Virus record (IMG/VR): IMGVR_UViG_3300013014_000617
Location: 1-49,960 of that record
Length of the DNA: 49,960 nt
From: a virus
Direction: 5' to 3' (one strand)
Below the pieces are notes generated by a model. The model had not been told where the DNA came from, ran no database searches, and saw nothing but the letters and a program-made list of their open reading frames with translations. Below, one piece after another: positions 15,087-49,515 of this stretch. The position numbers and the translations under genes were made by a program. Each line of letters begins with the position of its first letter. The stretch's first letter is position 1.

Positions 15087-15767
15087 ATGTCATACAACAA
15101 AACAAAAACTGACCCTGAGTTAGGTCAAAAGGTACATGAACATCTATTTAAAATGGGTGTTGAAACTCCCCGTAGAGATAACGGTATTGATCGCAAATTA
15201 AAAATTGCAATGATCGAGGAAAAGTTCCAAGATATTATGGGAATACTTGGATTAGATTTAACTGATGATAGTCTAATGGAAACGCCTAAACGTGTTGCCA
15301 AGATGTATGTGAATGAAATTTTCTGGGGATTAGATTATGATGCGTTTCCAAAGTGTACGACTGTTGATAACAAGATGCATTACAATGAAATGGTCGTTGA
15401 ACGCAACGTCAATGTCCAAAGTAACTGCGAACATCACTTTGTTGTTATTGATGGTTTGGCTACCGTGGCTTATGTTCCTAAACAGAAAGTCCTCGGACTA
15501 TCTAAAATTAACCGCATTGTTGAGTATTTCAGCAAGCGCCCTCAAATCCAAGAACGACTCACTGAACAGATTTTCCATACTCTCCAATTTATACTGGAGA
15601 CTGAAGATGTTGCGGTAATGATTGATGCACAACACTATTGTGTTAAATCTAGAGGTGTTGAAGATACAGGTTCATCTACCGTTACAGTTCGTCTAGGTGG
15701 TGGATTTAAAACAGATACATCCGCGAGGAATGAATTTTTAAGTATTGCAAGAATGTGTGGTAGATAA
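15087..15767 (+). CDS. folE: GTP cyclohydrolase I FolE
   Basis: FolE makes 7,8-dihydroneopterin triphosphate from GTP, the first step towards 7-deazaguanine (or folate). The 226 residues carry the full family signature: TPKRVAKMYVNEIFWGLDY, the zinc ligands in NCEHHFVVIDG, KVLGLSKINRIVEYFSKRPQ, and QHYCVKSRGVEDTGSSTVT near the end. An AAGGAAGG ribosome site is 9-16 bases before the ATG. Because queE and queD are also present, its product most probably feeds DNA 7-deazaguanine. The stop overlaps the next start (TAATG). Confidence 0.96.
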   Translation: MSYNKTKTDPELGQKVHEHLFKMGVETPRRDNGIDRKLKIAMIEEKFQDIMGILGLDLTDDSLMETPKRVAKMYVNEIFWGLDYDAFPKCTTVDNKMHYNEMVVERNVNVQSNCEHHFVVIDGLATVAYVPKQKVLGLSKINRIVEYFSKRPQIQERLTEQIFHTLQFILETEDVAVMIDAQHYCVKSRGVEDTGSSTVTVRLGGGFKTDTSARNEFLSIARMCGR

Positions 15768-24281: not shown

Positions 24282-25996
24282 TAAGATTTAGCAAAGTTAA
24301 ATGGAAAAATTTCTTATCCACCGGAGCTCAAGGCACAGAAGTAAAATTAGATAAAGCAACTACAACACTTATAGTAGGCGAAAATGGTGCCGGTAAAAGT
24401 ACTATTCTTGATGCTATTTGTTTCTGCCTATTTAATAAACCATTTCGTAGCATCAATAAACCTCAGTTGATGAACAGCATCAATGGTAAAAATTTACTTG
24501 TTGAACTAGAATTTAGTATCGGTCCTAAGAACTATAAAATTGTCAGAGGCATTAAGCCTGGTATTTTTGAGATTTATGTTAATGATGTCTTATTGAATCA
24601 GGATGCCGCATCTAAAGATTATCAGAAATATCTTGAAGACGGTATTCTAAAATTAAACTATAAATCATTTACTCAGATTGTTATCTTAGGTAGTGCTTCT
24701 TTTACCCCCTTTATGCAATTACCATTAGGGCATAGAAGAGAAATTATTGAGGACATTTTAGATATTCAAATCTTTACTGTAATGAATTCTGTACTTAAAG
24801 ATAAAACTACAGAAATAAAAAATCAAATTATAGACATTGATACTCAGATTGAATTGGGTAAAACTAAAGTTAAAATGCAACAGCAGTATATAGCTACGCT
24901 GGAGAATGATAAACAGAAGAAGGTGGAAGATGTACAAAAGCGAATACTTGAAACGACTGCAGAAATATCACAACTTAATGCTAGCGTCAACGCAGAACGG
25001 GAGACGGAAAGTAATCTTAAATCCTCGATTTCAGATGCGAAAGAAAAACGCAACAAACGAACAGAAATGGGATCTTTGCTTAGAAAACTTTCCGAACGGA
25101 TTACTACTCAGGAAACCCAAGTACAGTTTTATCACGACAACGACACATGTCCAACGTGTAGTCAAGCTCTTGATGACGAAGTCAAGAGCGGTGCGATACA
25201 ATCGCACACGCATAAGATCGAGGAGATTGCAACAGCTATTGAATCACTTAACACTCAACTCTCGGACATTGAAACAAGACTTGCAGAAATTGATTCAATC
25301 GAAGAGAAAATATCTGAACATCAAAGCAACATCATTACCTTCAACACCGGCATTATTGCGAACCAAAACTACATTCAAAAGTTACAGGGAGATTTATCAA
25401 CTTCTGCAACCGAGTCCGGAGATATTGAAGCAGAAAAAATTAAACTCAAGACTCTCGCCAAAGAGGTGGTCGCTCATTCGGATCAGAAGAGCAAGGCTTC
25501 GGAAGAAAAGCATTACCTAGATATCGCAAGTGTGTTACTAAGAGATACAGGTATTAAGACAAAGATCATTCGTCAATATTTGCCTGTCATTAATAAATTA
25601 GTAAATAAATATCTGCAAGCAATGGACTTCTTTTGTCACTTTGAATTGGATGAAACATTTAATGAATCAATCAAGTCACGACACCGAGACGAATTCTCAT
25701 ACGCCTCATTTAGCGAGGGCGAGAAACAACGCATAGACTTAGCTTTATTATTCACATGGAGAACCATAGCAAAAATGAAGAATTGTGCTAGCACAAACCT
25801 TTTGTTACTTGATGAGGTTTTTGACTCTTCTCTGGATGCTAACGGCACAGACTATGTTATGAACCTAATAAATACTTTAGGAGAAGAAACTAATGTTTTC
25901 GTTATTAGTCACAAGGGAGACCTTCTGTTTGATAAATTTAGAAGTGTTATAAAATTTGAGAAGTATCAGAACTTTTCTAGAATACAAGGAATATAA
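24278..25996 (+). CDS. gp46: Recombination ATPase subunit gp46 (Rad50-like)
   Basis: gp46 is the SMC-like ATPase partner of gp47. The 572 residues (T4: 560) begin with an ABC half containing Walker A GENGAGKST, then a coiled coil of about 300 residues interrupted by the zinc hook CPTC. It closes with the signature FSEGEKQRIDLAL and Walker B LLLLDEVFD plus SHKGD. The central coiled coil (24900-25500) also leaves a second frame open for about 200 codons, which I take as a composition effect. The next gene begins 1 base after its stop. Confidence 0.96.
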   Translation: MIRFSKVKWKNFLSTGAQGTEVKLDKATTTLIVGENGAGKSTILDAICFCLFNKPFRSINKPQLMNSINGKNLLVELEFSIGPKNYKIVRGIKPGIFEIYVNDVLLNQDAASKDYQKYLEDGILKLNYKSFTQIVILGSASFTPFMQLPLGHRREIIEDILDIQIFTVMNSVLKDKTTEIKNQIIDIDTQIELGKTKVKMQQQYIATLENDKQKKVEDVQKRILETTAEISQLNASVNAERETESNLKSSISDAKEKRNKRTEMGSLLRKLSERITTQETQVQFYHDNDTCPTCSQALDDEVKSGAIQSHTHKIEEIATAIESLNTQLSDIETRLAEIDSIEEKISEHQSNIITFNTGIIANQNYIQKLQGDLSTSATESGDIEAEKIKLKTLAKEVVAHSDQKSKASEEKHYLDIASVLLRDTGIKTKIIRQYLPVINKLVNKYLQAMDFFCHFELDETFNESIKSRHRDEFSYASFSEGEKQRIDLALLFTWRTIAKMKNCASTNLLLLDEVFDSSLDANGTDYVMNLINTLGEETNVFVISHKGDLLFDKFRSVIKFEKYQNFSRIQGI

Positions 25997-25997
25997 A

Positions 25998-26591
25998 ATG
26001 GCAAATGAATGGCAATTACAAACACACCAAATTAACGCATACTGCTACTATCAAAATATCTTTGATGAGGACATGATTAAAAGTATTGTGGAACTGGGTG
26101 ACTCTTTAGAAATGGGTGACGCCCAAGTAGGTGGTACATTTGATAAAGCGGGCGGAGCAAATCCTGAAATACGAAAGACAAAGATTTCGTGGATTCCTAC
26201 TACTGCAGAAAATGCTTGGTTGTTTAGAAAATTAACAGACGTAGTATTAGCAGCAAACACACAATGGTTTGGCTTTGATCTTAACCATATAGAAAATTTA
26301 CAATTCTCAGTATATAATGAAGGCGACTTCTATGATGCTCACGTTGACCATCACTTTCAAGGTGCAGGACAATTTCCTAGAAAGTTAAGCTTCACTATGC
26401 AATTAACTGACCCAGAAGAATATGAGGGTGGGCAGACATATTTAATTACATCACAGGAACCTTTTCCTATTGCTAAAGAAAAAGGTGCAATTACATTCTT
26501 CCCCTCATACACATTACACGAAGTTAAGCCAGTCACTAAAGGAACAAGAAAAGCTTTAGTGGGCTGGATTCACGGACCTAGATGGAAATAA
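25998..26591 (+). CDS. 2OG-Fe(II) oxygenase (prolyl-hydroxylase-like)
   Basis: This is a 197-residue iron- and 2-oxoglutarate-dependent dioxygenase. The iron ligands H-x-D are in YDAHVDHHF, followed by RKLSFTMQLTDPEEYEGGQT, and the distal His and the 2OG-binding Lys/Arg are in FFPSYTLHEVKPVTKGTRKA. The arrangement is that of PKHD-type/prolyl-4-hydroxylase-like enzymes that are common in marine T4-likes. Substrates there are unproven; protein hydroxylation, DNA base oxidation or nucleotide change are options. The start at 25998 was chosen over upstream codons that overlap gp46. Confidence 0.9.
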   Translation: MANEWQLQTHQINAYCYYQNIFDEDMIKSIVELGDSLEMGDAQVGGTFDKAGGANPEIRKTKISWIPTTAENAWLFRKLTDVVLAANTQWFGFDLNHIENLQFSVYNEGDFYDAHVDHHFQGAGQFPRKLSFTMQLTDPEEYEGGQTYLITSQEPFPIAKEKGAITFFPSYTLHEVKPVTKGTRKALVGWIHGPRWK

Positions 26592-30453: not shown

Positions 30454-31470
30454 ATGGAACAACAAAAAGTTGCTTTGATTACAGGCATAACCGGGCAAGA
30501 CGGTTCCTATCTTGCAGAATTATTATTATCTAAAGGCTACGAAGTACACGGTATCATTCGTCGTAGCTCTTCTATGAACACAGGTCGCATTGACCACATC
30601 TACAACAATCCAAATTTACAACTTCACTATGGTGACGTAACAGATTCTTTGTCTATTATGAATGTCCTGAAGAAACATAATCCTTCCGAAATTTATAATC
30701 TAGCAGCACAAAGTCACGTTAAGGTTTCATTCGAAACCCCCGAGTATACAGCAACAGTTGACGCATTAGGTACACTTAAAATTTTAGAATCAGTTAGAAT
30801 CCTAAATATGGATAAGACTTGTAAAATATATCAAGCATCTACTTCAGAAATGTTTGGCTTGGTGCAAGAAACTCCGCAAAAAGAAACAACTCCTTTTTAT
30901 CCAAGATCGCCGTATGGCGTAGCAAAATTATATGCATACTGGATTACTAAAAATTATCGTGAATCGTATGATATGTTCTGTTGTTCTGGAATTTTATTTA
31001 ATCACGAATCCCCCCGTCGCGGATTTAATTTTGTTACGAAGAAGATTGTAGATGGATTAGAAGCAATTAGCGCCGGTCGCCAAGAGTGTTTGTATATGGG
31101 TAATCTTAATGCAAAACGAGATTGGGGACACGCTAAAGATTATGTTAAAGCAATGTGGTTAATGTTACAACAAGATAAGCCAGAAGATTTTGTTATTGCT
31201 ACAGGCGAACAGTATTCGGTTAAAGATTTTATTGCCAAATGCGCCCCATACTTTTATTTACATATTAAATGGGAAGGCAAAGGATTGGATGAGGTTGGTA
31301 TTAATGTTAATACCGGTAAAGTCATAGTTAGAGTTGATCCAAAATATTTTAGACCAGCTGAAGTTGAGACTTTACTTGGAGACCCCTCAAAAGCTAAAAG
31401 TGTTTTAGGTTGGTCGCCTGAATATACTTTTGATGCTCTTGTAGAGGATATGTGTATAAATTTTAGTTGA
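30454..31470 (+). CDS. gmd: GDP-mannose 4,6-dehydratase
   Basis: Gmd turns GDP-mannose into GDP-4-keto-6-deoxymannose, the precursor of GDP-fucose. The 338 residues show the NADP motif [45 protein letters not shown], catalytic STSEMFG and [10 protein letters not shown] (Y-x3-K), and [16 protein letters not shown], all characteristic of Gmd. It is followed by GDP-fucose synthase after 6 bases and opens the late-transcribed sugar cluster. Confidence 0.96.
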
Positions 31471-31476
31471 GGTTTT

Positions 31477-32412
31477 ATGGAAAAAAATAGTAGAATATTT
31501 GTTGCGGGTCATAGAGGATTAGTTGGATCTGCGATTGTTAGAAAATTACAAGAAGAAGGTTATACTAATCTAATTCTTAAAACAAAATCCGAATTAGATT
31601 TAAGAAATCAACTTGCGGTTAACGTATTTTTCTCTGTGCATCAACCAGAATATGTATTTTTAAGTGCTGCTAAAGTCGGCGGCATTAATTGGAATTGGAC
31701 ACATCCTGGTGAATTTATTTACGATAATTTGATTATCCAAAGCAATGTTATAGATGCTGCTTATAGAAACAGCGCTAAGAAATTATTATTCTTAGGTTCC
31801 GCTTGCATCTATCCAAAGATTACCCCTCAACCTATTAAGGAAGAATATCTTCTTACTGCTCCACTTGAGCCAACGAATGAGGGGTATGCATTAGCAAAAA
31901 TTACTGGTCTACGTATGTGCGAATACTATAGACGCCAGTATGGGTTTAACGCTATTAGTTGTATGCCTGCAAATTTATATGGCATTAATGATAACTTCAT
32001 TCCCGAGCATGGTCATGTTATTCCTGGTATTATTACTAAGATGCACAATGCTATGAAGAATGGAGAGGATAGTATTGAGTGTTGGGGTGACGGAACACCT
32101 ACAAGAGAATTTCTATATGTAGATGATCTTGCCGATGCTTGTTATTGGTTAATGGAAAATTACAATGAGAAAGAATTTGTTAATGTTGGAAGTGACGAAG
32201 AATTAACAATCAAAGAACTTGTAGAAAAATTAACTAAAGAGTTTGGCTTTACAGGTAAAGTTAATTGGAATACAGACAAACCAAACGGTACTCCGAGACG
32301 TAAATTAGATAATACAAAATTAAAAGAGTTAGGTTGGAAATCTAAAACAAGTTTTGACGACGGGTTAAAACTTACTATTGATTGGTATAAAAAAGATAGA
32401 GGTATGGTATGA
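31477..32412 (+). CDS. fcl: GDP-L-fucose synthase
   Basis: This is the epimerase-reductase that finishes GDP-L-fucose from the Gmd product. The 311 residues contain FVAGHRGLVGSAIVRKL, AAKVGGI, FLGSACIYPK (Ser/Cys pair at the active site), GYALAKITGLRMCEYY (Y-x3-K) and MPANLYGINDNF, typical of the Fcl/WcaG family. A GAGG ribosome site precedes the ATG, and the stop overlaps the next ATG. With gmd and the downstream fucosyltransferase it forms a full fucose cassette. Confidence 0.96.
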   Translation: MEKNSRIFVAGHRGLVGSAIVRKLQEEGYTNLILKTKSELDLRNQLAVNVFFSVHQPEYVFLSAAKVGGINWNWTHPGEFIYDNLIIQSNVIDAAYRNSAKKLLFLGSACIYPKITPQPIKEEYLLTAPLEPTNEGYALAKITGLRMCEYYRRQYGFNAISCMPANLYGINDNFIPEHGHVIPGIITKMHNAMKNGEDSIECWGDGTPTREFLYVDDLADACYWLMENYNEKEFVNVGSDEELTIKELVEKLTKEFGFTGKVNWNTDKPNGTPRRKLDNTKLKELGWKSKTSFDDGLKLTIDWYKKDRGMV

Positions 32413-33949: not shown

Positions 33950-34828
33950 ATGAGTAAGAAAATAAAATTAGGCTTTGCTGATACACACGAACATATATCA
34001 CAATTCTTTCATAGTCTATTGGCAAATAGATTTGATGTGGAAATAGACAATGAAAATCCTGACTATTTGATCTTCGGTGATAGTAATTTTGGATCAAATA
34101 ATAAAAAATTTAGTAAATCGGATTGCGTTAAGATTTTCTATACAGGCGAGAATCAAAGACCAGACAATTACGATTGTCATTATGCAATCACTTTTGATCA
34201 TAACTATAATAATTGGCATTTCCGATTACCGTTGTTTGTAGTCTATATGTGGGCATTGGATGCTATTCATAATACAGGGCACAAGTATTATCATATTCTC
34301 AGTGAGCATAACCCTATTTTAAAAACAGATTTTTGTTCCTTTGTTGTTAGCAATCCCGGCTGTGAAGAGCGTAATGAATTCTTTAAAGAATTGAATAAGG
34401 TCAAACGTGTGGATAGCGGTGGTGGATTATATAATAACATTGGTAGCAAGCTAGATGGTGAGCTAGCTAAAATTAATTTCTTAGCTAAGCGTAAATTCAA
34501 TATATGTTTTGAGTCTGGTTCTTATCCCGGTTATGCTACAGAAAAAATTCTTCATGCTTACTATGCTAGAACTATTCCTATCTATTGGGGCAGTCCCACA
34601 ATAGCATCAGACTTTAATATTCAATCTTTTATAAATGTTCATGATTTTAACAACCATGAAGAAGTAATTAATTTTGTTATGAGATTGGATTCGGATGAGG
34701 ATCTATATAACAGAGTAATATCAGCGCCTCCTTTAGCAGCAGGCATTCCTAGAGATTATATGATCTTGAACAATTTCTTAAATTGGTTTGAGTCTGTAGT
34801 TTATAACAAACAAGACATGAGAGAATAA
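33950..34828 (+). CDS. Glycosyltransferase family 10 (alpha-fucosyltransferase)
   Basis: This is a 292-residue GT10-type fucosyltransferase. The diagnostic GDP-fucose-binding region is FESGSYPGYATEKILHAYYA followed by RTIPIYWGSP and INVHDFNNHEEVINFV, very close in pattern to alpha-1,3-fucosyltransferases. KIFYTGENQRPD near the N terminus also fits the family. Its donor can be made by gmd and fcl a few genes upstream, so the phage has synthesis and transfer of fucose together. Good GAGGAAA ribosome site. Confidence 0.92.
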   Translation: MSKKIKLGFADTHEHISQFFHSLLANRFDVEIDNENPDYLIFGDSNFGSNNKKFSKSDCVKIFYTGENQRPDNYDCHYAITFDHNYNNWHFRLPLFVVYMWALDAIHNTGHKYYHILSEHNPILKTDFCSFVVSNPGCEERNEFFKELNKVKRVDSGGGLYNNIGSKLDGELAKINFLAKRKFNICFESGSYPGYATEKILHAYYARTIPIYWGSPTIASDFNIQSFINVHDFNNHEEVINFVMRLDSDEDLYNRVISAPPLAAGIPRDYMILNNFLNWFESVVYNKQDMRE

Positions 34829-35559
34829 TGAAAATACTTACATTTATATTTAATTGGCGTGGTCAATATGATAAGACTATTGAGAAAGTAAACCAACTTA
34901 GAAAGATCGGAGTTGATCCTATTGTTATTAATAGTGACGAAGAACATAATAATTCTGACTGGCATAACATAGGTGAAGACAGTTACTTCACTGCTCAGTT
35001 TATGAAAGCTCTAGAAGTATTTAAAGAAAAACAAGGCGACGTATTATTTCATATTCAAGGTGACGCAACATACGATAATTGGAAACAATTATATGCAGAT
35101 GCAGAAAAACATTTTGAAACATATGAATGGGGAATCTATGCACCTAATGTGGATTATACTTGGTATGATTCTTCAAGGGTGGATCTACGATTTAACATAG
35201 ATGAACCGAATCTTAAAATGGTAGCAGATACAGATTGTACTTGTTGGTTTATCCATAAAGATATTATTAATATGGCAGATGAAAAGGGGATTGATTTTGC
35301 ACCGTATAAAATGGGTTGGAGTTTTGATATAATTTATTCTGCTCTTAGTTTTTTAAGTCAAAGACCAGTTCTCCGAGATTACTCACATACTATTGACCAT
35401 CCACCAGGAACCAATTATAATAAGGAACAGGGCGAAAAAGAGATGGCAGAATTGTATGAGTCCTTAGAAGACGATGTCAAAGAAGCATTCTATTTTATTA
35501 AAACAGACATTAATAATCTATCAAAATATTATGAAGATCAGTTATCAACAAACGAATGA
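34828..35559 (+). CDS. Putative glycosyltransferase, GT-A-like
   Basis: This is a 243-residue protein that starts with a hydrophobic strand (MKILTFIFNWRGQYDKTIEK) and has FHIQGDATYDNWKQLY, where GDA takes the place of the D-x-D metal site, then WGIYAPNVDYTWYDSS and MGWSFDIIYSA. The order fits a GT-A fold, but no named family is recognised. The ATG overlaps the fucosyltransferase stop (TAATG). The next gene begins inside its end. Confidence 0.65.
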   Translation: MKILTFIFNWRGQYDKTIEKVNQLRKIGVDPIVINSDEEHNNSDWHNIGEDSYFTAQFMKALEVFKEKQGDVLFHIQGDATYDNWKQLYADAEKHFETYEWGIYAPNVDYTWYDSSRVDLRFNIDEPNLKMVADTDCTCWFIHKDIINMADEKGIDFAPYKMGWSFDIIYSALSFLSQRPVLRDYSHTIDHPPGTNYNKEQGEKEMAELYESLEDDVKEAFYFIKTDINNLSKYYEDQLSTNE

Positions 35560-36451
35560 TATAATTAGGGATGCCTTAATTAAAGGTGACCCTGCATCTA
35601 TACTTCGTATTGACAATACAGCTAAGTATATTATAGAATGTATTTTAAGTAATAAACAACCTTCTCCTGAATTTTGTAATGAGTCCACAGTTGTTCAAGC
35701 AGGTGTATTTCCTACAAGTATAGAATATCTTTTGGATAGTATTTATCCAGCAACAATAGATATAATGAAACAATGCGATTTATTAGGATTTGTTGATGTA
35801 GAGAATTCTATGCATAACGATCCTAATAAACAATTTATCTATGATACTTTTGCGGGTAGACCAATTTATTCTGGTCATTCTATACTTGTTATGGATCCGG
35901 GTGCAATCTTAGGTCACGCATCTCATGTCACTGGTTGTATTGATCCGTGGACAAAATATCTTAAGGGTAAAAAGGTATTAGTTATTTCTACACACGCAGA
36001 AACAATTAAGTATCAATGGAATCGTATAAATGAGGTATGGGGCAAGGATAAAGATATAATTGCGCCTTTTGAATTAGCAGGAGTTATACGAACCCCTTTC
36101 CATCCTATGATGGATAGTAGACAATATCCGGGTTGTAATAGTTGGTCTGATACTGTTGGTTATATTATGGAAGAGATGTCCAAGTATGATTATGATGTTT
36201 TACTTTCTGGCGCAACAACATCGTCTCCTTTTTATGTAGACTATGCTAAGCAACAAGGTAAGATAGGCATCCAAACAGGCGGAGCTATACAAATATTCTT
36301 TGGTATATTAGGATATAGATGGACTAAGGTTGATGGTTATAAGGGTTGGTATAATATGTACAATGAACATTGGATGTATCCTATGCCTATAGATAGCGCA
36401 CAGTTGCGTGAGAATTATAAATTTTTAGAAACTAATTTTGCATACTGGTAA
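35531..36451 (+). CDS. Unknown glycan-cluster protein, possible GT-D-like
   Basis: This is a 306-residue protein with KGDPASILRIDNTAKYIIEC at the start, a middle KGKKVLVISTHAETIKYQWN and the end VLLSGATTSSPFYVDYAKQQ then GIQTGGAIQIFFGILG. The pattern is like proteins of O-antigen clusters related to GT-D/DUF1792 glycosyltransferases, where a similar glycine-rich strand closes the fold. The link is by eye and weak. The start at 35531 was chosen because earlier codons lie deep in the previous gene. A two-base gap... spacing leads to the dehydrase gene. Confidence 0.62.
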   Translation: MKISYQQTNDIIRDALIKGDPASILRIDNTAKYIIECILSNKQPSPEFCNESTVVQAGVFPTSIEYLLDSIYPATIDIMKQCDLLGFVDVENSMHNDPNKQFIYDTFAGRPIYSGHSILVMDPGAILGHASHVTGCIDPWTKYLKGKKVLVISTHAETIKYQWNRINEVWGKDKDIIAPFELAGVIRTPFHPMMDSRQYPGCNSWSDTVGYIMEEMSKYDYDVLLSGATTSSPFYVDYAKQQGKIGIQTGGAIQIFFGILGYRWTKVDGYKGWYNMYNEHWMYPMPIDSAQLRENYKFLETNFAYW

Positions 36452-36452
36452 T

Positions 36453-37775
36453 ATGAATAAACAAGATATCATTAATGGAGTGGCTGCTTATTTTCAGAAT
36501 AAAGCAGCAAATAAGACATGGACTGCAGGTAAAGATTTTGTAAATTATGCTGGTCCATATTTTGACGAACACGAGTATTTGTCTGTTATAGATACTTTAC
36601 TTGATGGTTGGTTGGTCATGGGAGACAAGTCTTTAAAGTTTGAAAAAGAATTTCCTAAACAGTTTGGCAAAGAGCATGGCATCTTAACGAACTCAGGATC
36701 AAGTTCTAATCTATTGATGATGTCTACATTGACTTCTAAAAGAGGATATAACTTACCCAAAGGCACAAAAGTATTAATGCCCATTGCAGGATTTCCCACA
36801 ACACTCAATCCTACGCTACAATTAGGGTTTGAACCTATATTCTTAGATATTGAATTAGACACACTTAATTTAGATTTAACTAAAGCAGAAGAACTAATTA
36901 AACAACATAATATTAAAGTAATTACATTTGCTCACGTATTAGGCAATCCTCCTAATATGCGTTGGGTAATGGAATTGGTTAATAAGTATGATCTAATCTT
37001 ATTAGAAGATTGTTGCGATGCGCTAGGTAGTACATATGACGGAAAGCCATTGGGTTCATTTGGTGAAATGTCATCTTGTTCTTTCTATCCTGCTCATCAC
37101 ATGACTATGGGTGAAGGTGGTTTTGTAGCATGTAAAACTTATGAGACAGAAGTTATTGCTAGATCATTTAGAGAATGGGGTAGAGGTTGTTACTGTGTAG
37201 GACCCGAGGCAAACAAACTAAAGTGTGGCACTTGCGGTAAACGATTCCAAGAATGGATTCCTACAATGCCTGGCGAAATATTTGACCACAAGTATGTGTA
37301 TGATGAAATTGGCTATAATTTAAAACCAATTGAAATGCAAGGCGCAATGGGATTAGTTCAATTAGAAAAATTGGATCAGATTCATTACTTGCGCAGGCGC
37401 AACTATAAATTGTTATTTGATATCTATAGTAAGTATGAAGAATATTTCCACTTACCTAGACCACAGGAATATTCTGATCCTAGTTGGTTCGCATTTCCTT
37501 TAACTATTCGTAAGGGTTCTCCTTTTACAAGAAGCGATATTGTAGACTACTTAGAGGAAAAACTTATTCAAACAAGACCATATTTTGCTGGAAACATTAT
37601 GTTACAACCTGCGTATTCTCATATTATGGATCCCGCAGATGCTAAAGCAAATTTCCCTGTAGCAACAATGGTTATGACAAATACTTATTTCCATGGAACA
37701 AGTCCTGTTATTACCCCAGAACAAATTGCTTATATAGGTGAACAGGTTGATGGTTTTATGAGTTTATTCAATTAG
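36453..37775 (+). CDS. rfbH: RfbH-type 3-dehydrase (PMP/iron-sulfur, DegT fold)
   Basis: This is a 440-residue DegT/DnrJ-fold enzyme of the RfbH (E1) type, which removes the 3-hydroxyl of a nucleotide-4-keto-6-deoxy-sugar. Two features separate it from aminotransferases. The PLP-lysine site reads YPAHHMTMGEGG with His in place of Lys. Four cysteines (246, 248, 258, 261; GRGCYCVG then KCGTCGKRF) can hold the 2Fe-2S cluster of E1. Length fits RfbH (about 437). The classical substrate is CDP-4-keto-6-deoxyglucose and a reductase partner (E3) is needed; none is visible here. ThDP and reductase genes follow. Confidence 0.92.
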   Translation: MNKQDIINGVAAYFQNKAANKTWTAGKDFVNYAGPYFDEHEYLSVIDTLLDGWLVMGDKSLKFEKEFPKQFGKEHGILTNSGSSSNLLMMSTLTSKRGYNLPKGTKVLMPIAGFPTTLNPTLQLGFEPIFLDIELDTLNLDLTKAEELIKQHNIKVITFAHVLGNPPNMRWVMELVNKYDLILLEDCCDALGSTYDGKPLGSFGEMSSCSFYPAHHMTMGEGGFVACKTYETEVIARSFREWGRGCYCVGPEANKLKCGTCGKRFQEWIPTMPGEIFDHKYVYDEIGYNLKPIEMQGAMGLVQLEKLDQIHYLRRRNYKLLFDIYSKYEEYFHLPRPQEYSDPSWFAFPLTIRKGSPFTRSDIVDYLEEKLIQTRPYFAGNIMLQPAYSHIMDPADAKANFPVATMVMTNTYFHGTSPVITPEQIAYIGEQVDGFMSLFN

Positions 37776-37783
37776 GAACAAAT

Positions 37784-38794
37784 ATGAGAGTATGCGATTG
37801 GATTGCTAATTACTTATACCAACAAGGTATTACTAAAGTCCATGGCTTAATGGGCGGAGGTGCTAGCGGATTAAACGATGGCTTTATCAAGCACGGCAAA
37901 ATCGGTTATATCTGTTATCATCATGAACAAGGTGCCGGTCATGCCGCTATAGGTGAAAGTAAATTTACAGGTGAACTCTCCGTAGTTAATCCTACAACAG
38001 GATGTGCGGGAACTAATTGCGCGACATCTGTTTTAAATGCTTGGCAAGATGGTGTACCTGTTTTATTCTTATCAGGCAATGTTAGATTGAATACTTGTAG
38101 CAGTTGGATCAATATGCAAAAAGGAATTCATTTGCGTAAATATGGTATTCAAGAACATAACATTGTTAGTACTTTTGCAGGTATGACTAAGTATAGTAAA
38201 TTTATTACTCGCCCACAAGATGTACCATATCAATTGAGTTATGCTATACACATTGCTAAGGAAGGTCGCAAGGGTCCTGTTTGGATAGATATTCCTGGAG
38301 ATGTACAAACAGCGCAGATGCCCGAAGAATATAACTTATATGTGGATCGGCATTCGCACACTGAAAGAGAAAATTTATATAGAGTAAAAGCTAAATTAGA
38401 AACCGCAAAGAGACCTATTGTCCTAGCAGGATATGGTATTCGACAAAGTAATACAGTTAAAGAATTTGTAAATTTTATAGAGACCTATGATTTGCCGTTT
38501 GTTAGTACATATGGTGGCAGAGATTATACTCCAAATTCGCATCATTTAAGTATCGGCGCAGTAGGTATAAAAGGAAGTAGAGCAGGAAATTTTGCTATGC
38601 AGAATTCGGATTGTTTAATAGTATTAGGCAGTAGTTTAAATTCTAGTGTTATAGGTTATGATCCAAACCAGTTTAGTCCAGGGAGTTATAAAATACTAAT
38701 TGACATAGATGATAATGAGTTGAAAAAAGATGTATTACACATACACGAAAAGATTTGTATGTCTTTACCTGACTTTTTTAAGGAAATGCAATGA
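37784..38794 (+). CDS. Thiamine-diphosphate enzyme, N-terminal half
   Basis: This is a 336-residue protein equal to the PYR and middle domains of acetolactate-synthase-type ThDP enzymes. The catalytic Glu is in YHHEQGAGHAAIGESKFTGE, followed by PTTGCAGTNCATSVLNAWQD and PVLFLSGN. The middle domain has RPIVLAGYGIRQS and ends before where the PP domain should begin. That PP domain is encoded by the next gene, overlapping by ATGA. A two-gene version of an enzyme that is normally one chain of about 570 residues is unusual. YerE-like use in branched-sugar synthesis is a possibility. Confidence 0.88.
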   Translation: MRVCDWIANYLYQQGITKVHGLMGGGASGLNDGFIKHGKIGYICYHHEQGAGHAAIGESKFTGELSVVNPTTGCAGTNCATSVLNAWQDGVPVLFLSGNVRLNTCSSWINMQKGIHLRKYGIQEHNIVSTFAGMTKYSKFITRPQDVPYQLSYAIHIAKEGRKGPVWIDIPGDVQTAQMPEEYNLYVDRHSHTERENLYRVKAKLETAKRPIVLAGYGIRQSNTVKEFVNFIETYDLPFVSTYGGRDYTPNSHHLSIGAVGIKGSRAGNFAMQNSDCLIVLGSSLNSSVIGYDPNQFSPGSYKILIDIDDNELKKDVLHIHEKICMSLPDFFKEMQ

Positions 38795-39534
38795 AACATC
38801 AAGCATGGATAGACAAATGTAATCATTGGAAATCTATTTGGCCGGTGATGCAACCAGAATGGGAAGCAACCGACGACGCCGACGTATTAAATTTATATGC
38901 AGTATTAGATGCTGTTAATAAACATAGTAGACCCGAAGATATTTTAATGGGTGACGCTGGTAGTATTAGTTATGCCGGGCCAGTTGCTTTAAATGCTAAA
39001 CCGGGGCAACGATTTATATTCAGTCCTGCCCAAGCGGATATGGGATGGGCATTGCCAGGGGCAATAGGTGTTAGTATGGCTAGCAATCAACCTATTATAT
39101 CCATTATAGGTGATGGTAGTTTTATGAGTAACATTCAAGAACTGGCTGTGGTAAGGCAGCATGATCTTAATATTAAGTTTGTTATACTAAATAATAATGG
39201 CTACCTAAGTATTAAGAATACGCAAACTAAATACTTTGATGGTCGAGTGTTTGGTACAAGTTCAGAATCAGGATTATGGTTTCCTAATTTTAGAAACATT
39301 GCCGCATCTTTTGATATTAAGTATGCGCTTATTAAGAATAAGAGTAATCTTGAAACATTCCCCACATTATTAGAAACAGTTGGTCCCATGATTATTGATT
39401 GTAGATGCTTGGATGAACAAGAGATCTTACCAGCACAGGCATTAAAGAATGGCAAGCAAGCAGGACTACATGATATGACACCATTCCTTTCAGATGAGGA
39501 ATTAGCAAGAGAAATGATAGTGGAAATAAAATGA
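38791..39534 (+). CDS. Thiamine-diphosphate enzyme, C-terminal (PP) half
   Basis: This is a 247-residue protein equal to the pyrophosphate-binding domain of a ThDP enzyme. It has ILMGDAGSISYAGPVAL, FSPAQADMGWALPGAIGVSM and the ThDP motif GDGSFMSNIQELAVV ending in ILNNNGY (GDG then NN). Its N terminus HQAWIDKCNHWKSIW is the linker that normally follows the middle domain. Combined with the upstream protein it gives 583 residues, the normal size of one ThDP enzyme. The frame change between the halves is exactly at an ATGA stop/start. Confidence 0.88.
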   Translation: MKHQAWIDKCNHWKSIWPVMQPEWEATDDADVLNLYAVLDAVNKHSRPEDILMGDAGSISYAGPVALNAKPGQRFIFSPAQADMGWALPGAIGVSMASNQPIISIIGDGSFMSNIQELAVVRQHDLNIKFVILNNNGYLSIKNTQTKYFDGRVFGTSSESGLWFPNFRNIAASFDIKYALIKNKSNLETFPTLLETVGPMIIDCRCLDEQEILPAQALKNGKQAGLHDMTPFLSDEELAREMIVEIK

Positions 39535-40298
39535 GAAAGATTCTTATTTTAGGTGCGGGTGGATTTGTAGGTTCATACATAGGTCCTTTATTAACAAAAG
39601 ATAATATAGTAATGTCTATTACCAAACCGGGTATAGATGTAACAGATGCTGATGCTGTAAGAAATATGTTAGAACAGGCACAACCAGATTTTGTTATTAA
39701 TTGTCTTACATTCGGCGGCAATGACGATGTTAATAGTAAGGATCCTAATATAGTTGCTAAAAATTTAGCAATGTATTATAACTTTAAATGTAATTCTGAT
39801 CTATTCGGAAAATATATTAATATCGGATCTGGAGTAGAAGCAGATACTAATAACAATAGTGCCTATGCTGTTTCTAAAAGAATGATTACTAAAGATTTGG
39901 ATTATAATAAATTTACTAATCTTAAATTATATGGATGCTTTGGTTCGCATGAAAGAGATAGTAGATTATTGAAAAGATTCTTAGCAACAGATGGGCCTTT
40001 TATTTTAAAGGATGATAGAGAATTTGATTACATTTCTATAAGTGATTTTTATAGAATTATAAGATATGTATTAACTAACAATACATATAGAAATATGGAT
40101 TGTGTATACTACAAGAAAAGAACACTAAGTGAATTTTTAAGATTATTCTGCGATATAAATAATATAGATAAAGAAGTTATAGTTGAATCTACAAGTAAAA
40201 ATCATTATACTGGAGAATCATCTACTCTTGATATAATGCAAAGTCAAGGTTTAGAACTATATGGTATTATGCACGGACTGAAAGAATATATGCAATGA
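39531..40298 (+). CDS. Nucleotide-sugar reductase/epimerase (extended SDR)
   Basis: This is a 255-residue short-chain dehydrogenase of RmlD/YerF-like size. It has the NAD(P) motif ILGAGGFVGSYIGPLL, a catalytic SGVEADTNNNSAYAVSKRMI (Y-x3-K), and a short C-terminal substrate domain. The gene overlaps its neighbours by ATGA. In yersiniose clusters a reductase (YerF) follows the ThDP enzyme (YerE), the same order as here, so reduction of a branched keto-sugar is a reasonable inference. Confidence 0.82.
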   Translation: MRKILILGAGGFVGSYIGPLLTKDNIVMSITKPGIDVTDADAVRNMLEQAQPDFVINCLTFGGNDDVNSKDPNIVAKNLAMYYNFKCNSDLFGKYINIGSGVEADTNNNSAYAVSKRMITKDLDYNKFTNLKLYGCFGSHERDSRLLKRFLATDGPFILKDDREFDYISISDFYRIIRYVLTNNTYRNMDCVYYKKRTLSEFLRLFCDINNIDKEVIVESTSKNHYTGESSTLDIMQSQGLELYGIMHGLKEYMQ

Positions 40299-41239
40299 AG
40301 ATACTTTATGTTACAGGATGTTTAGGGTTTATAGGTTACCATGTAACTAAAAAATTCCTAGATGAAGGTCACTATGTTTATGGTATAGATAGTAAAACGT
40401 ATGCTAGTAATAAAGACTTTCTTTATGAATTACTAGAATATAAAAATTTTACATTCGACGGTTGTGATATAAATGATATCGAACGATTAGTCGATTGTGA
40501 TTACTTTATCAATACTGCCGCAGAAACACATGTGGACAATAGTATTGTCAGCTCAGATGTTTTCTTGCGTAGTAACATCAACGGAGTTCATAAGATATTA
40601 GAACTCATCAAACAAAAACCAAAATCAAGAAGACCGACGCTAATACACTTTAGTACAGATGAAGTGTATGGTGACTTAGTCTCAGGTTTTCATACTGAAA
40701 CAGATTTATTAAAACCAAGCAATCCCTATTCTGCAACTAAAGCTGCCGCAGATATGTTGGTTCTTGCTTGGGCAAGAACATATGATATTCCCTACGTAAT
40801 TGTTAGACCAACTAATAATTATGGCATTGGTCAATATGTAGAGAAATTTATTCCAAAAGCCTGTAAGAATTTATCTTTAGGCAAACCAATTGTAATGCAT
40901 GATAACGGCGAACCGATTAGAACATGGCTTCATGTTTCGGATACAGCAAACGCTGTCTTTGTACTTGTATTAATGAATATTAAGAATGATATCTTTAATA
41001 TCTCAGGAAATTATGAGGAAAAGAATATAGTTGTTGCAAGAAAAATTATAGATAATTACTTTGGTTATACTGTAGATTATGATAAGTATATGGATTTTTC
41101 AGAAAAACGTCAAGGTCAAGATGTACGATATGCTATAGATGATAGTAAATTACGAGGCTTGGGTTGGTCATGTAAAGCAGACTTTGATACAGGACTAAAA
41201 GAAATTATAGAATGGCATAAAGAAAATTTTGTATGGTAG
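40295..41239 (+). CDS. Nucleotide-sugar 4,6-dehydratase (RmlB-like)
   Basis: This is a 314-residue extended SDR most like dTDP-glucose 4,6-dehydratase. It has VTGCLGFIGYHVTKKFLDEG, NTAAETHVDNSI, the catalytic STDEVYGD (Thr-Asp-Glu), NPYSATKAAADMLV (Y-x3-K) and VRPTNNYGIGQYVEKFIP. Such an enzyme makes a 4-keto-6-deoxy sugar, which is the type of substrate that the RfbH-like dehydrase needs. The nucleotide (dTDP, CDP or UDP) cannot be read from the sequence. Confidence 0.9.
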   Translation: MKILYVTGCLGFIGYHVTKKFLDEGHYVYGIDSKTYASNKDFLYELLEYKNFTFDGCDINDIERLVDCDYFINTAAETHVDNSIVSSDVFLRSNINGVHKILELIKQKPKSRRPTLIHFSTDEVYGDLVSGFHTETDLLKPSNPYSATKAAADMLVLAWARTYDIPYVIVRPTNNYGIGQYVEKFIPKACKNLSLGKPIVMHDNGEPIRTWLHVSDTANAVFVLVLMNIKNDIFNISGNYEEKNIVVARKIIDNYFGYTVDYDKYMDFSEKRQGQDVRYAIDDSKLRGLGWSCKADFDTGLKEIIEWHKENFVW

Positions 41240-41874
41240 ACAAATATTTTACATTTAGTATTTGGGGCGACAACCCTAAATATCTGCAAGGCGCAATTAG
41301 AAATGCAGAACTTGCAGAAGAAATATTTCCCGAATGGAAATGCGTATTTTACTATGACTCAACTGTACCAAAAGAAACAATTGATAAACTATCTTCATTT
41401 AAGAATACGTCAGTTAAAGAAGTGACGGATGATAGTTTCGGTGCATTCTGGAGATTTGAAATGATGTTCAATAATCCGGGAGTTATATTATCTAGAGACA
41501 CTGATTCAAGATTAAGTTTAAGAGAAAAAGAACTTATTGACAACTGGCTTGAATCCGAATATAATTATATGATTATTCGAGACCACGATGCACACTACGA
41601 ATTTCCTATATTAGCAGGTATGTGGGGCAAGAAAAATGTATTGATGGATAGTAGTCTTAAAGACGCTATGCAAGAATATGTTTCTGTTAAACAATATTTG
41701 GTAGATCAATTTTATTTACGAGATAAAGTATGGCCAAATATAATGCACGATACTGCTATATACGGAGTTAAAGAAGTGGATTGGATGAGGGAGACTTATG
41801 ATTTTGAGAATAAAAATTTCATAGGTCAGACATACACAGAAAACGATGAGCCTGTATACGATGGAAAAATTTAA
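41233..41874 (+). CDS. Putative glycosyltransferase (GT-A-like)
   Basis: This is a 213-residue protein with FTFSIWGDNPKYLQGAIRNA at the start, a strand/helix WKCVFYYDSTVPKETIDKL and PGVILSRDTDSRLSLREK, which contains a D-x-D-like metal motif. MIIRDHDAHYEFPILAGMWG is a further conserved-looking loop. It resembles small GT-A-type sugar transferases found in phage and bacterial polysaccharide clusters. The stop overlaps the next gene by 14 bases. Specificity is unknown. Confidence 0.7.
   Translation: MVDKYFTFSIWGDNPKYLQGAIRNAELAEEIFPEWKCVFYYDSTVPKETIDKLSSFKNTSVKEVTDDSFGAFWRFEMMFNNPGVILSRDTDSRLSLREKELIDNWLESEYNYMIIRDHDAHYEFPILAGMWGKKNVLMDSSLKDAMQEYVSVKQYLVDQFYLRDKVWPNIMHDTAIYGVKEVDWMRETYDFENKNFIGQTYTENDEPVYDGKI
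41537..41565 (+). promoter_or_regulatory. Candidate sigma70-type promoter inside a glycosyltransferase gene
   Basis: TTGACA (41537-41542) and TATAAT (41560-41565), both perfect, are 17 bases apart. They lie within coding sequence about 300 bases before the next gene. It could be chance in AT-rich DNA or an internal promoter for the second half of the cluster. Confidence 0.4.
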
Positions 41875-42541
41875 AGAATTAGTATTACATCACCACTTAG
41901 GATTGGGTGATCACATTATATGTAATGGAATGGTCTACGGACTTATAGAAAAATATGATGTAGAACAATTATATCTTATGGTTAAAGATGTTAATTTACC
42001 CACAGTAAATAAACTATATGAGGATTCGGATATTATAATACCCGTATCTATTCCATATGAGACGTATGAACAAGAACAAAAATTTGTAGCAGAATATCGT
42101 ACAGACATTCCTCACCTAGATATAATTTATACAGGTGGGGGATCAGAATTCTTCGATATTGAATTCTATGGCATGGCGAATATAGAATTCGAAGATAGGT
42201 GGGATAAGTTTACAATGCCCAAGGATGATTCTGCTAGTAAAGAGTTCTTTAATAAGTTTATAAAAGATAAAGAATATTGCCTAGTACATTGTCAGGGAAG
42301 TCCTGGCCCATATAATTTGGACATAAAAACTAATCTACCAATATACTATGTTGAATCGGGACTAACCGATACCTTATTAGATTGGACAGACGTAATTAAA
42401 AATGCTAAGGAAATACATTGTATAGATAGTAGCATTATACATCTAGCAGATAGTTTAGACTTAACTGCTGAGAAATTATACTATCATGATGTTGGTCGAG
42501 GAAGTCAATTCCATCTTATTAATGAATGGTCAAGAGTATGA
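41861..42541 (+). CDS. Unknown glycan-cluster protein with GLGDHI motif (second copy)
   Basis: This is a 226-residue protein paralogous to that at 33158. Shared features are LHHHLGLGDHIICNGMVYGL near the start, a similar length and a donor-half segment KEYCLVHCQGSPGPYNLD then WTDVIKNAKEIHCIDSSIIH, comparable to DFVDLIKKAKEIHVVGSF in the other copy. A GT-B (heptosyltransferase-like) fold is possible. The start at 41861 was chosen because it gives the N terminus of the paralogue; earlier codons overlap the upstream gene. Confidence 0.7.
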   Translation: MEKFKELVLHHHLGLGDHIICNGMVYGLIEKYDVEQLYLMVKDVNLPTVNKLYEDSDIIIPVSIPYETYEQEQKFVAEYRTDIPHLDIIYTGGGSEFFDIEFYGMANIEFEDRWDKFTMPKDDSASKEFFNKFIKDKEYCLVHCQGSPGPYNLDIKTNLPIYYVESGLTDTLLDWTDVIKNAKEIHCIDSSIIHLADSLDLTAEKLYYHDVGRGSQFHLINEWSRV

Positions 42542-43635
42542 TGAACATTGTTATTCCTATGGCAGGGCTAGGAACTAGATTTCAAAAGATAGGAATAGAT
42601 AAACCTAAGCCGTTGATTGTTGTTAATGGTAAAACATTAATAGAACATTCTATAGATAGTTTTAATGTAAAGGGTAGGTTTATTTTTATTACTAGGGACT
42701 TTGATGACCCTGAGTATAATAAAGAACTAACTGATATCTTTGAATCAAAAGGTATAGAATATACTGAAATAAGAATTAGTAATACTACAGACGGTGCTGC
42801 AGATACAGTATTGTTTGCAAAAGACATTATTGATAATGATAACCCATTGGTTGTTTATAATTGCGATCAAATAATTAAGTGGGATTCTGTTGGTTTTTTA
42901 AATTGGATACAGGATAAAGATCCCGATGCTGCTCTTGTTTTATATAAGAGTAAAGATCCTAAAAATAGTTTTGCTGAAATAAAATTAAATAGAATCTTTA
43001 AAGTTGTAGAGAAGGATCCTATTTCTGATAATGCCTTGATTGGATTCCATTATTGGAAAAGAGGGAAAGACTTTGTTACTAGCGCAAAAAAATTATTAGA
43101 TAATTTTAGAATATCGGGAAGACCAGAATGTTATATCAGCGAGACATTCAATTATTTAAGAGACGCTAAAATTTTACCTTTCCATATAATTAATAACGCA
43201 TATATTCCTTTAGGTACTCCTGAAGATGTTGCAAAATATTTAGGTAAGGTTGGGGAATTTGATACTAACAAGCCAAAAACACTATTCATTGATATAGATG
43301 GTACTGTATTAAAACACGAACATACTATAAGCGGCGTCTATAAGAATGCACCTACAATTTTACCAGGTGTAGTTGACAAAATTAATGAATGGGATAGTAA
43401 AGGACATAAGATCATTTTTGTTACTGCTAGAAAAGAAAGCACACGAAAAATAACCGAGGAACAATTAACATTTTTTGGTTTAGCTTGGGATCAGTTAATA
43501 ATGGGAGTCGGTGGAGGTTCCAGATATATTATTAATGATAAAATGAATATTGATGATATGGATAGAGCAGTAGGAATAAGCGCAATTACTAACTCAGGTT
43601 TTAACACAATAAATTGGGCAGATTACGGATTATGA
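42538..43635 (+). CDS. Nucleotidyltransferase-HAD phosphatase fusion
   Basis: This is a 365-residue two-domain protein. Residues about 1-240 are a sugar-phosphate nucleotidyltransferase, with IPMAGLGTRFQKIGIDKPKP (the G-x-G-T-R-F and PKP motifs) and VYNCDQIIKWDS. Residues about 250-365 are a HAD-like hydrolase with TLFIDIDGTVLKHEHT and IIFVTARKESTRK, then IINDKMNIDD. This order is the reverse of the protein at 48142. It presumably activates a sugar (or polyol) phosphate for the cluster. ATGA overlap with the upstream gene sets the start at 42538; 42541 is also possible. Confidence 0.87.
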   Translation: MMNIVIPMAGLGTRFQKIGIDKPKPLIVVNGKTLIEHSIDSFNVKGRFIFITRDFDDPEYNKELTDIFESKGIEYTEIRISNTTDGAADTVLFAKDIIDNDNPLVVYNCDQIIKWDSVGFLNWIQDKDPDAALVLYKSKDPKNSFAEIKLNRIFKVVEKDPISDNALIGFHYWKRGKDFVTSAKKLLDNFRISGRPECYISETFNYLRDAKILPFHIINNAYIPLGTPEDVAKYLGKVGEFDTNKPKTLFIDIDGTVLKHEHTISGVYKNAPTILPGVVDKINEWDSKGHKIIFVTARKESTRKITEEQLTFFGLAWDQLIMGVGGGSRYIINDKMNIDDMDRAVGISAITNSGFNTINWADYGL

Positions 43636-47218: not shown

Positions 47219-48145
47219 ATGGTAAAAGATATTTTATTTTTAAATTACCATTGGGTACCTAATAGTACTTTCATTTTCAAATCATTAGAAAATACTGGAT
47301 ATGTGTGTGATTTTATAGGTGAGCCGGAATTAGAATCATTCGTTCCAACTTGCGAATATAAAGTTGTAATCGCATACTTACATGACCCTCATCATTTACC
47401 TATAATCAGTAGATTACTAGAAACTTCTTTAAAGAATAGTTTCTTTATACAACATGATGATACTGATTCAGAAGATGTTAGTAGATGGTTCTCAAGATCT
47501 CCTGATTTAATTATGCACAGAGAGTTGACAAGTAACACTAATAGACATTATAATTGTCCTATATACCCAATGCATTTCCCCATTCCTTCGGTTAATGATT
47601 ACCAGAATAGAGAAAGAGATATAGATGTTTGTTTTATCGGTGCACCCACAAACCAACGAAGAAACTTCTTTGTAGATAAACTACGTCAAATACAACCTCA
47701 TTTAAATATTAATTGGTCAATAAAATATTCTCATGAAAGAAACATTCCTGAAACTTTAGATATTTTAAATAGATCTAAGATTGTAGTAAATTATCCAGGT
47801 AACAGTTACGATAGCTGGAGAATTTGGGAAGCGGCAAGTGCAGGCGCAGCAATTTTACAACCAAAATTACCGCTAGATAGTATATCAAAAGAGCATATGT
47901 TCTTTGATGAGTATGTAGAATACAATATGGATTGTTCTGATCTAAAAGATAAAATAGTGTGGCTATTAGAAGAGGACAGATGGATAGAATGGGGTAATAG
48001 AAGTATAAACTCATATGAGGCTTACCACACACCCGAGGATTGTTTTGTGAGATATTATAATAATATTATTAGACACGTTCCCCTCGAAAAACTAATACCT
48101 AATCCCGTAAATCCTTTTGAAATTTTTAAACCTAACCGAGTATGA
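47219..48145 (+). CDS. Glycosyltransferase, CgeB/GT-B-like
   Basis: This is a 308-residue protein of CgeB-like GT-B type. It has FIQHDDTDSEDVSRWFSRSP, DVCFIGAPTNQRRNFFVDKL, SKIVVNYPGNSYDSWRIWEA and the donor-site helix AASAGAAILQPKLP, a pattern of CgeB/glycosyltransferase group 1 proteins. It overlaps the next gene by ATGA. Specificity is not visible. Confidence 0.82.
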   Translation: MVKDILFLNYHWVPNSTFIFKSLENTGYVCDFIGEPELESFVPTCEYKVVIAYLHDPHHLPIISRLLETSLKNSFFIQHDDTDSEDVSRWFSRSPDLIMHRELTSNTNRHYNCPIYPMHFPIPSVNDYQNRERDIDVCFIGAPTNQRRNFFVDKLRQIQPHLNINWSIKYSHERNIPETLDILNRSKIVVNYPGNSYDSWRIWEAASAGAAILQPKLPLDSISKEHMFFDEYVEYNMDCSDLKDKIVWLLEEDRWIEWGNRSINSYEAYHTPEDCFVRYYNNIIRHVPLEKLIPNPVNPFEIFKPNRV

Positions 48146-49515
48146 TTAAACTAATAATTTTTGATTTAGACGGAGTACTAATAGATAGTAGGGAACTTCA
48201 CTACGAAGCATTGAATTCTGCCCTAGTTAAAATTGACCCTAAGTATATTATTACTAGAGAAGAACATTTAAGTAGATATGACGGATTAAATACTACTGCT
48301 AAACTAGAACTACTACACTCGGAAAAAGGATTGCCTAAATCCGAATTCAATTCTGTATGGCAAAATAAACAGTCTGCAACTATAGATGCATTCAAACAAT
48401 TCTCAAACGACGAAAAATTAATTAGTATATTCTTGGAACTAAAACAGATAGGATATAAAATAGGTGTTGCGAGTAATAGTATTAGAGAAACAGTAAAACT
48501 ATCTTTATTAAAAATCGGTATACTTGAATATGTGGACTACTATGTTAGCAATGAAGATGTAAAAAGACCTAAACCATTTCCTGAGATGTATTGGAAATGT
48601 ATGACTGCAATGGGTCACAATGCTAAGGAAACATTAATAATTGAAGATAGTCATATTGGAAGAGCAGGCGCTATTGCAAGCGGCGCGCATCTTTTACCCG
48701 TAGAAGATTGTAATGATTTATCTATGGAAAAAATAAGAAAAGAATTAATGATACTAAATGGACTAAACAATAGCCCTAAGGTACCATGGCGTGATAATAA
48801 ATTGAATGTACTAATACCAATGGCAGGCGCAGGATCCAGATTTGCAACTGCAGGATACACATTCCCTAAGCCATTGATTGAGGTTAATGGTAAACCAATG
48901 ATTCAAGTTGTTGTTAACAATTTAAATATAGATGCTAATTATATCTTTATAGTGCAAAAAGAACATTATGACAAATATAATTTAAAATATCTATTGAACT
49001 TAATAGCTCCAGACTGTAAAATAGTACAAGTCGAGGGCGTGACTGAAGGCGCTGCCTGTACAACGCTATTGGCAAAAGAATTTATAGATAATGCTAATCC
49101 ATTGTTAATTGCTAACAGTGATCAATACATTGAATGGGATTCTAATTCATGTATGTATGCGTTTGGTGCAGATACTATCGATGGGGGAATTTTAACTTTT
49201 GAAGCAAGTCATCCTAAATGGAGTTATGCCTCAATAGGCGAAGAAGGATTCGTAAAAGAAGTTGCTGAGAAAAAGGTTATCAGTAATAACGCAACAGTTG
49301 GTGTTTATTATTGGAAACGGGGAAGCGACTATGTTAAGTATACTAATCAAATGATAGAAAAGAATATTAGAACAAATAATGAGTTTTATGTTTGTCCAGT
49401 ATACAATGAAGCAATTTTAGATGAGAAAAAGATTCGAGTAAAAGAGATTAAAAATATGTGGGGCATTGGTACTCCAGAAGATTTAAATTATTTCTTACAA
49501 AATTACAAGGTTTAA
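48142..49515 (+). CDS. HAD phosphatase-nucleotidyltransferase fusion
   Basis: This is a 457-residue two-domain protein. Residues 1-210 are a beta-phosphoglucomutase-like HAD domain with IFDLDGVLIDSRELHYEALN, GVASNSIRETVKLS and ETLIIEDSHIGRAGA. Residues about 225-457 are a sugar nucleotidyltransferase with LIPMAGAGSRFATAGYTFPK, PLIEVNGKPM and ANSDQYIEWDS. The order is the reverse of the protein at 42538, and the two nucleotidyltransferase domains are clear homologues. It may act as mutase/phosphatase plus nucleotidyltransferase for one sugar phosphate. Confidence 0.88.
   Translation: MIKLIIFDLDGVLIDSRELHYEALNSALVKIDPKYIITREEHLSRYDGLNTTAKLELLHSEKGLPKSEFNSVWQNKQSATIDAFKQFSNDEKLISIFLELKQIGYKIGVASNSIRETVKLSLLKIGILEYVDYYVSNEDVKRPKPFPEMYWKCMTAMGHNAKETLIIEDSHIGRAGAIASGAHLLPVEDCNDLSMEKIRKELMILNGLNNSPKVPWRDNKLNVLIPMAGAGSRFATAGYTFPKPLIEVNGKPMIQVVVNNLNIDANYIFIVQKEHYDKYNLKYLLNLIAPDCKIVQVEGVTEGAACTTLLAKEFIDNANPLLIANSDQYIEWDSNSCMYAFGADTIDGGILTFEASHPKWSYASIGEEGFVKEVAEKKVISNNATVGVYYWKRGSDYVKYTNQMIEKNIRTNNEFYVCPVYNEAILDEKKIRVKEIKNMWGIGTPEDLNYFLQNYKV

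Follow-up and report, generated by a model that had tools for sequence, protein, structure and literature searches.

Does a T4-like virus make a branched-chain dideoxy sugar? The question is raised by the genes at 36453-41239 of the window, by which we mean the whole 49,960-base IMG/VR virus record IMGVR_UViG_3300013014_000617, where an RfbH-type 3-dehydrase is followed by a ThDP enzyme, a short SDR, and an RmlB-like dehydratase (Table 1). We consider it probable that these genes encode a pathway to a nucleotide-activated 3,6-dideoxyhexose with a carbon branch at C4, the activity itself being inferred. What the sequences by themselves allow to be read are enzyme families, catalytic residues, a gene split, conservation, co-occurrence, and re-fusion. 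LPS-type gene clusters are well known in phages (PMC7029224), and RfbH is already known in cyanophages. No papers on phages with branched-chain sugars were found in the open-access literature, nor did we find any description of a phage YerE-like ligase, of a split version of it, or of one coupled with RfbH. More than 200 candidate YerE-like enzymes have been reported, with none in phages mentioned in the accessible part of that source (PMC12247030).

Table 1. Features of the window, in order of position
Feature	Coordinates	Strand	Matches and motifs
gmd + fcl (GDP-fucose supply)	30454..32412	+	gmd TIGR01472, 544 bits, over cutoff; fcl NF047922, 429 bits, cutoff 500 not reached
GT10 fucosyltransferase, in glycan cassette with gmd/fcl	33950..34828	+	PF18025, PF00852
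RfbH/E1-type PMP- and [2Fe-2S]-dependent NDP-4-keto-6-deoxyhexose 3-dehydrase	36453..37775	+	NF011936; His for Lys; four cluster Cys
ThDP enzyme, first half (ThN): PYR + TH3, catalytic Glu48	37784..38794	+	PF02776 (TPP_enzyme_N), PF00205 (TPP_enzyme_M)
ATGA stop/start overlap of ThN and ThC	38791..38794	+	AGGA 6 nt 5' of second start
ThDP enzyme, second half (ThC): PP domain, GDG...NN	38791..39534	+	PF02775 (TPP_enzyme_C)
Short SDR	39531..40298	+	PF01370/RmlD-like; GAGGFVG (GxxGxxG), YAVSK (YxxxK)
RmlB-like NDP-glucose 4,6-dehydratase	40295..41239	+	TIGR01181; GxxGxxG, TDEVY, YSATK (YxxxK)
Nucleotidyltransferase-HAD fusion	42526..43635	+	PF00483 + HAD matches; RmlA-like, 65 bits, under cutoff

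The glycan cassette and its deoxysugar enzymes

The left end of the window carried T4-like sheath, tube, portal, scaffold, and gp23 genes, and a glycan cassette extended from ~30.4 kb to the right end, encoding gmd, fcl, a GT10 fucosyltransferase, FkbM methyltransferases, and glycosyltransferases. Among the closest relatives of the window was a 222-kb record (L003) with gp23 and a nearly identical cassette. A cyanophage origin was unsupported, as no psbA was found in 10 related records. Two nucleotidyltransferase/HAD fusions were present in the cassette (42526-43635 and 48142-49515), with the domain order reversed between them; to judge by its domain matches, the first might supply an activated sugar. 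Cassette proteins at 34828-35559, 35474-36451, 41233-41874, and 41846-42541 were conserved, had no Pfam, NCBIfam, or PHROGs match, and are perhaps glycosyltransferases. Elsewhere in the window, a radical-SAM-like protein (13739-14626; weak match) and a GTP cyclohydrolase I (15087-15767) are possibly part of a 7-deazaguanine pathway, and a 2OG-Fe(II) oxygenase-like protein was encoded at 25956-26591.

The first-pass annotation had read the first gene as an RfbH-type 3-dehydrase with histidine in place of lysine and four cluster cysteines, and both the profile score and the alignment bear this out. The protein (440 amino acids from the ATG at 36453; the open reading frame opens upstream, TTG 36438) passed the RfbH equivalog cutoff of NCBIfam NF011936 (442.3 bits versus 423). 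Aligned to E1 (3bcx), it retained His220 (His215 here, within YPAHH) and the four cluster cysteines (C188, C246, C248, and C261), with a 5-residue insertion ahead of the last; the second matched E1 entry, 3bb8, has Lys at the His220 position. The His and CxC...C pattern was kept in the RfbH copies examined among those recovered from related phage loci. An E3-like reductase (PF00175, PF00111), which had not been visible earlier either, was found neither in the window nor in 7 long related records, including the 222-kb one, by a weakly sensitive search: the profile search of genomes missed the window's own nucleotidyltransferases (PF00483), weak matches can escape it, and its negatives carry limited weight. 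SpnQ, which is related to RfbH, is served by general host electron carriers.

The SDR reductase and RmlB-like dehydratase proposed downstream were likewise upheld by profile matches and motifs, with the nucleotide-binding and catalytic motifs intact in both proteins. Against TIGR01181, the dehydratase scored 291.5 bits and did not reach the equivalog cutoff of 365.1, for which reason we call it RmlB-like only; against the CDP-glucose dehydratase model TIGR02622 it scored 67.7 bits (cutoff, 278.45), and no CDP-glucose dehydratase was found. Because it matches the dTDP-glucose type far better than the CDP-glucose type, yet falls under the equivalog cutoff, dTDP is likely, on profile scores, to be the nucleotide carrier but is unproven. 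The SDR, which lay after or flanking the ThDP pair in most relatives, is by its family and motifs a candidate ketoreductase or epimerase that would act after ligation.

A ThDP enzyme encoded by two genes

A ThDP enzyme behind RfbH was supported by domain matches, but it is not encoded by a single gene, as had been annotated; two overlapping genes, ThN and ThC, each encode one half. The single-chain PYR-TH3-PP layout of characterized YerE-like members, which is typical of these ligases and no functional requirement, is lacking in the window. Relatives of ThN occupied 75 IMG/VR loci (43 nonredundant after clustering at 95%), every one of them split and none fused, and the junction was ATGA in 68 of the 74 that could be read. 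A sequencing error is excluded by the recurrence of the split in 75/75 loci that were mostly 53 to 89% identical and mostly had ATGA junctions. A second scan, based on ThC, matched 145 virus contigs, many overlapping the first set; its 78 newly fetched loci comprised 72 that were split, 4 with one chain (~594 to 610 amino acids), and 2 without the N half. In the tree, the one-chain phage forms nested within the split clade, with moderate support at some inner forks. The simplest history that these sequences suggest is one fission and then one re-fusion, and because the one-chain forms would represent a natural re-fusion within the split clade, ThN and ThC are inferred to act as one enzyme.

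Scans of bacterial genomes with exact peptides (VVNPTTGC and GLNDGFIK) returned no relatives of ThN, and a ThC-peptide scan returned fused enzymes only, at 31 to 38% identity and often located in sugar clusters with RfbH; divergent copies would escape scans that rely on exact short peptides. Two bacterial contigs (L087 and L097) each carried two fused YerE-like enzymes in tandem. Among 50,697 phage records, neither ThN nor ThC had a relative at ≥60% identity; all ThN matches in that collection were below 60%, those with annotations were labeled acetolactate synthase, and many resembled bacterial chromosome fragments. The split enzyme recurs in ~145 uncultured virus fragments, and none was found in cultured phages or in the bacterial genomes searched.

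Characterized YerE-like members ligate 2-oxo acids with ketones, the acceptor of YerE itself being a keto sugar (PMC12247030), and JanthE is such a ligase accepting ketones (PMC12247030, PMC12188165) and carrying a CDG motif (PMC12247030), which was visible in the 8rph sequence. JanthE (8rph) was the best PDB match of both ThN (149.6 bits, versus 136.6 for 5ahk) and ThC (108 bits, versus 72 for the next, a plant AHAS), and it was also the best fold match of the structures predicted for ThN (pLDDT 85.6) and ThC (TM 0.82). The 5ahk entry bears the title acetohydroxy acid synthase Pf5, and we take it to be the PpYerE of the literature. In a maximum-likelihood tree, the phage enzymes, their fused bacterial relatives, JanthE, and PpYerE stood apart from AHAS, Gcl, and PoxB (99/93), and a second, unrooted tree likewise placed the phage enzyme with YerE-like enzymes and not with AHAS. 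The phage sequences formed a single clade (100/100), nearest to enzymes of Sporomusa and Ruminococcaceae (97/93). The trees lacked the Yersinia YerE and ErwE sequences, and their bacterial members had been found via a phage-derived peptide, so that sampling was biased. In 20/20 phage sequences, the acceptor-carboxylate Arg of AHAS (At R377) was replaced by Ser, Thr, or Gly and the equivalent of Trp574 by Thr; the catalytic Glu, GDG, NN, and R..G.Q motif were retained. Clustering with acetolactate synthases, which the first-pass annotation had set in advance as a refutation of its reading, did not occur, as judged from the trees, the JanthE matches, and the Arg and Trp losses. That the phage pair belongs with YerE-like ligases and not with AHAS, Gcl, or PoxB is supported by these sequence comparisons, and its ligase activity is inferred; YerE, previously taken as the model, represents the right group, but the nearest characterized relative is JanthE.

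The phage enzyme has PYR-TH3-PP domains, the catalytic Glu, the ThDP motif, R..G.Q, and an RfbH neighbor in common with YerE (Yersinia), ErwE (Pectobacterium), PpYerE, and JanthE (Janthinobacterium), and a clade in common with the last two. It differs in that these ligases are one chain, whereas nearly all of the phages encode two genes (PYR+TH3 and PP), in having GDG where JanthE has CDG, and in an identity of only ~30%. AviB1/AviB2 and KbDH-alpha/beta (alphaKADH2) likewise employ two subunits to attach an acyl branch, the acceptor being a ketone or keto sugar; these enzymes are of the alpha-keto acid dehydrogenase (E1alpha/E1beta) types, whereas the phage enzyme belongs to the decarboxylase superfamily and is cut between TH3 and PP. 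The sulfopyruvate decarboxylase ComD/ComE is, as here, a ThDP decarboxylase in two genes, but ComDE lacks TH3, which ThN keeps on the first chain.

Linkage with RfbH and competing explanations

RfbH lay within 6 kb of the ThDP pair in 42 of the 43 nonredundant loci; in the remaining one (L060), a divergent RfbH started 6.3 kb upstream. SDR and RmlB genes were mostly present and the neighborhood was conserved in many contigs; a 4,6-dehydratase was absent within 6 kb in about one-quarter of the nonredundant loci. The RfbH copies adjoining the pair fell into two separate clades, one phage-specific, containing that of the window and linked with RmlB-like genes, and one beside bacterial E1 (the L059 group), and both accompanied one single ThDP clade. 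That distinct RfbH genes have repeatedly come to stand beside one kind of ThDP enzyme is hard to explain unless the two act in sequence, and together with the proximity in 42 of 43 loci we regard it as strong comparative evidence for one pathway. In the L059 group, RfbH-ThN-ThC was mostly followed by an SDR, a gp23 match was absent where tested, and no 4,6-dehydratase occurred within 6 kb, so that the keto sugar would have to come from the host. Compared with the 222-kb relative, dN/dS was 0.03 to 0.19, a sign of purifying selection that argues for genes in use; together with best profile E-values of 1e-132 (RfbH) to 1e-12 (SDR) and the conserved neighborhood, this speaks against a chance assemblage.

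A class I aminotransferase sat beside RfbH and ThN in 18 of the 43 loci, and none was found in the window or its 222-kb relative. One phage sugar cassette (L071:11759-12685) encoded PanB (3-methyl-2-oxobutanoate hydroxymethyltransferase; over the cutoff) after the split ThDP enzyme. In another (L031:8834-9996; also L029 and L030), a short E1alpha/E1beta-like ThDP pair (207 and 180 amino acids) was flanked by RfbH and the split YerE-like enzyme, in the slot that the aminotransferase occupies in others. Possibly, by inference, these proteins provide or lengthen the 2-oxo acid or introduce a further branch.

Might the ThDP pair instead be an acetolactate synthase for amino acid synthesis in the infected cell, with RfbH nearby by chance? 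AHAS models did score best among curated profiles, far under their cutoffs, but placement in the tree and loss of the acceptor Arg and Trp574 led us to reject an AHAS or other amino acid role, and with the RfbH linkage and JanthE as the nearest structure, we give this explanation very little credence. Even less credible is a nonfunctional piece of host DNA, decaying or newly captured: hypervariability is indeed known for the glycan cassettes of T4-like phages (PMC7029224), but this cassette has intact residues and low dN/dS, is conserved over many contigs and different phage types, and has a split form that exact-peptide scans did not find in host genomes. It also seems unlikely, though less remote, that two different sugars are involved, RfbH leading to a dideoxyhexose without a branch and the ThDP enzyme acting on another keto sugar to branch it, such as GDP-4-keto-6-deoxymannose made by gmd. 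Unbranched dideoxyhexoses exist and gmd and fcl stand in the same cassette; the non-T4-like group nevertheless has, repeatedly, a minimal RfbH-ThN-ThC-SDR set that lacks gmd, and RfbH genes of two separate clades are found with the ThDP enzyme.

A single pathway to a C4-branched sugar remains the preferred reading, and it could be refined without being displaced: the branch may exceed two carbons, as with ErwE, from 4-hydroxy-2-oxo or other 2-oxo acids, which would bring the product nearer to erwiniose or caryophyllose than to yersiniose. The aminotransferase, PanB, and E1alpha/beta neighbors favor this, as do the long donors taken by JanthE and the hydroxylated ones preferred by ErwE (PMC12247030). 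With no class I aminotransferase found in the window or the 222-kb relative, pyruvate remains the simplest donor to assume for these two, and we rate a longer branch as a serious possibility that falls somewhat short of even.

Proposed pathway and its meaning

A yersiniose-type pathway had been proposed for these genes. Its type stands, on the YerE-like grouping, the Arg and Trp losses, and the RfbH linkage; its CDP route does not, as the dehydratase is RmlB-like. The yersiniose A pathway (ddhA-D, yerE, yerF) resembles the phage genes in having an RfbH/DdhC-type dehydrase, a YerE-type ligase, and a reductase-like gene in that order, and differs in that the phage has an RmlB-like and not a CDP-glucose dehydratase, no E3/DdhD that we could find, and no certain nucleotidyltransferase. 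Cyanophages such as S-B05 also combine RfbH with a dTDP-glucose dehydratase within a phage glycan cassette, but no ThDP partner is annotated in theirs.

In the pathway that we propose, the RmlB-like enzyme would form NDP-4-keto-6-deoxyglucose, probably dTDP bound, and RfbH would use PMP and a [2Fe-2S] cluster to remove the C3 hydroxyl, drawing electrons from a ferredoxin or flavodoxin reductase of the host. Next, ThN and ThC, together a YerE-like enzyme, would decarboxylate a 2-oxo acid, which may be pyruvate or longer and need not be pyruvate, and transfer the acyl group to the ketone at C4, yielding a tertiary alcohol; the SDR would reduce the new ketone or adjust stereochemistry. Phage glycosyltransferases may build the branched sugar and fucose into a glycan displayed by the virion or by the host cell surface. 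The most likely product is an NDP-3,6-dideoxy-4-C-branched hexose for a phage-made glycan, with substrates, donor, nucleotide, product, biological role, and activity on keto sugars all inferred.

A broader account can be offered only tentatively, and we think it more doubtful than the pathway itself: a viral YerE-like lineage would have split early in phage evolution, re-fused once, gained RfbH as a partner on two or more occasions, and swapped donor-making neighbors (aminotransferase, PanB, and E1alpha/beta) to vary the branch, so that phages could produce dTDP-bound branched dideoxy sugars that are missing from the host repertoire and use them to coat the virion or alter the surface of the host. 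The bacterial one-chain, phage split, and phage re-fused forms provide a natural series for gene fission in a multidomain enzyme, and two-subunit ketone-accepting ligases with varied donor-gene neighbors may find use in biocatalysis. Bacterial surfaces are known to carry C-branched sugars that YerE-like enzymes make; a widespread viral pathway would widen the presumed output of phage glycan cassettes.
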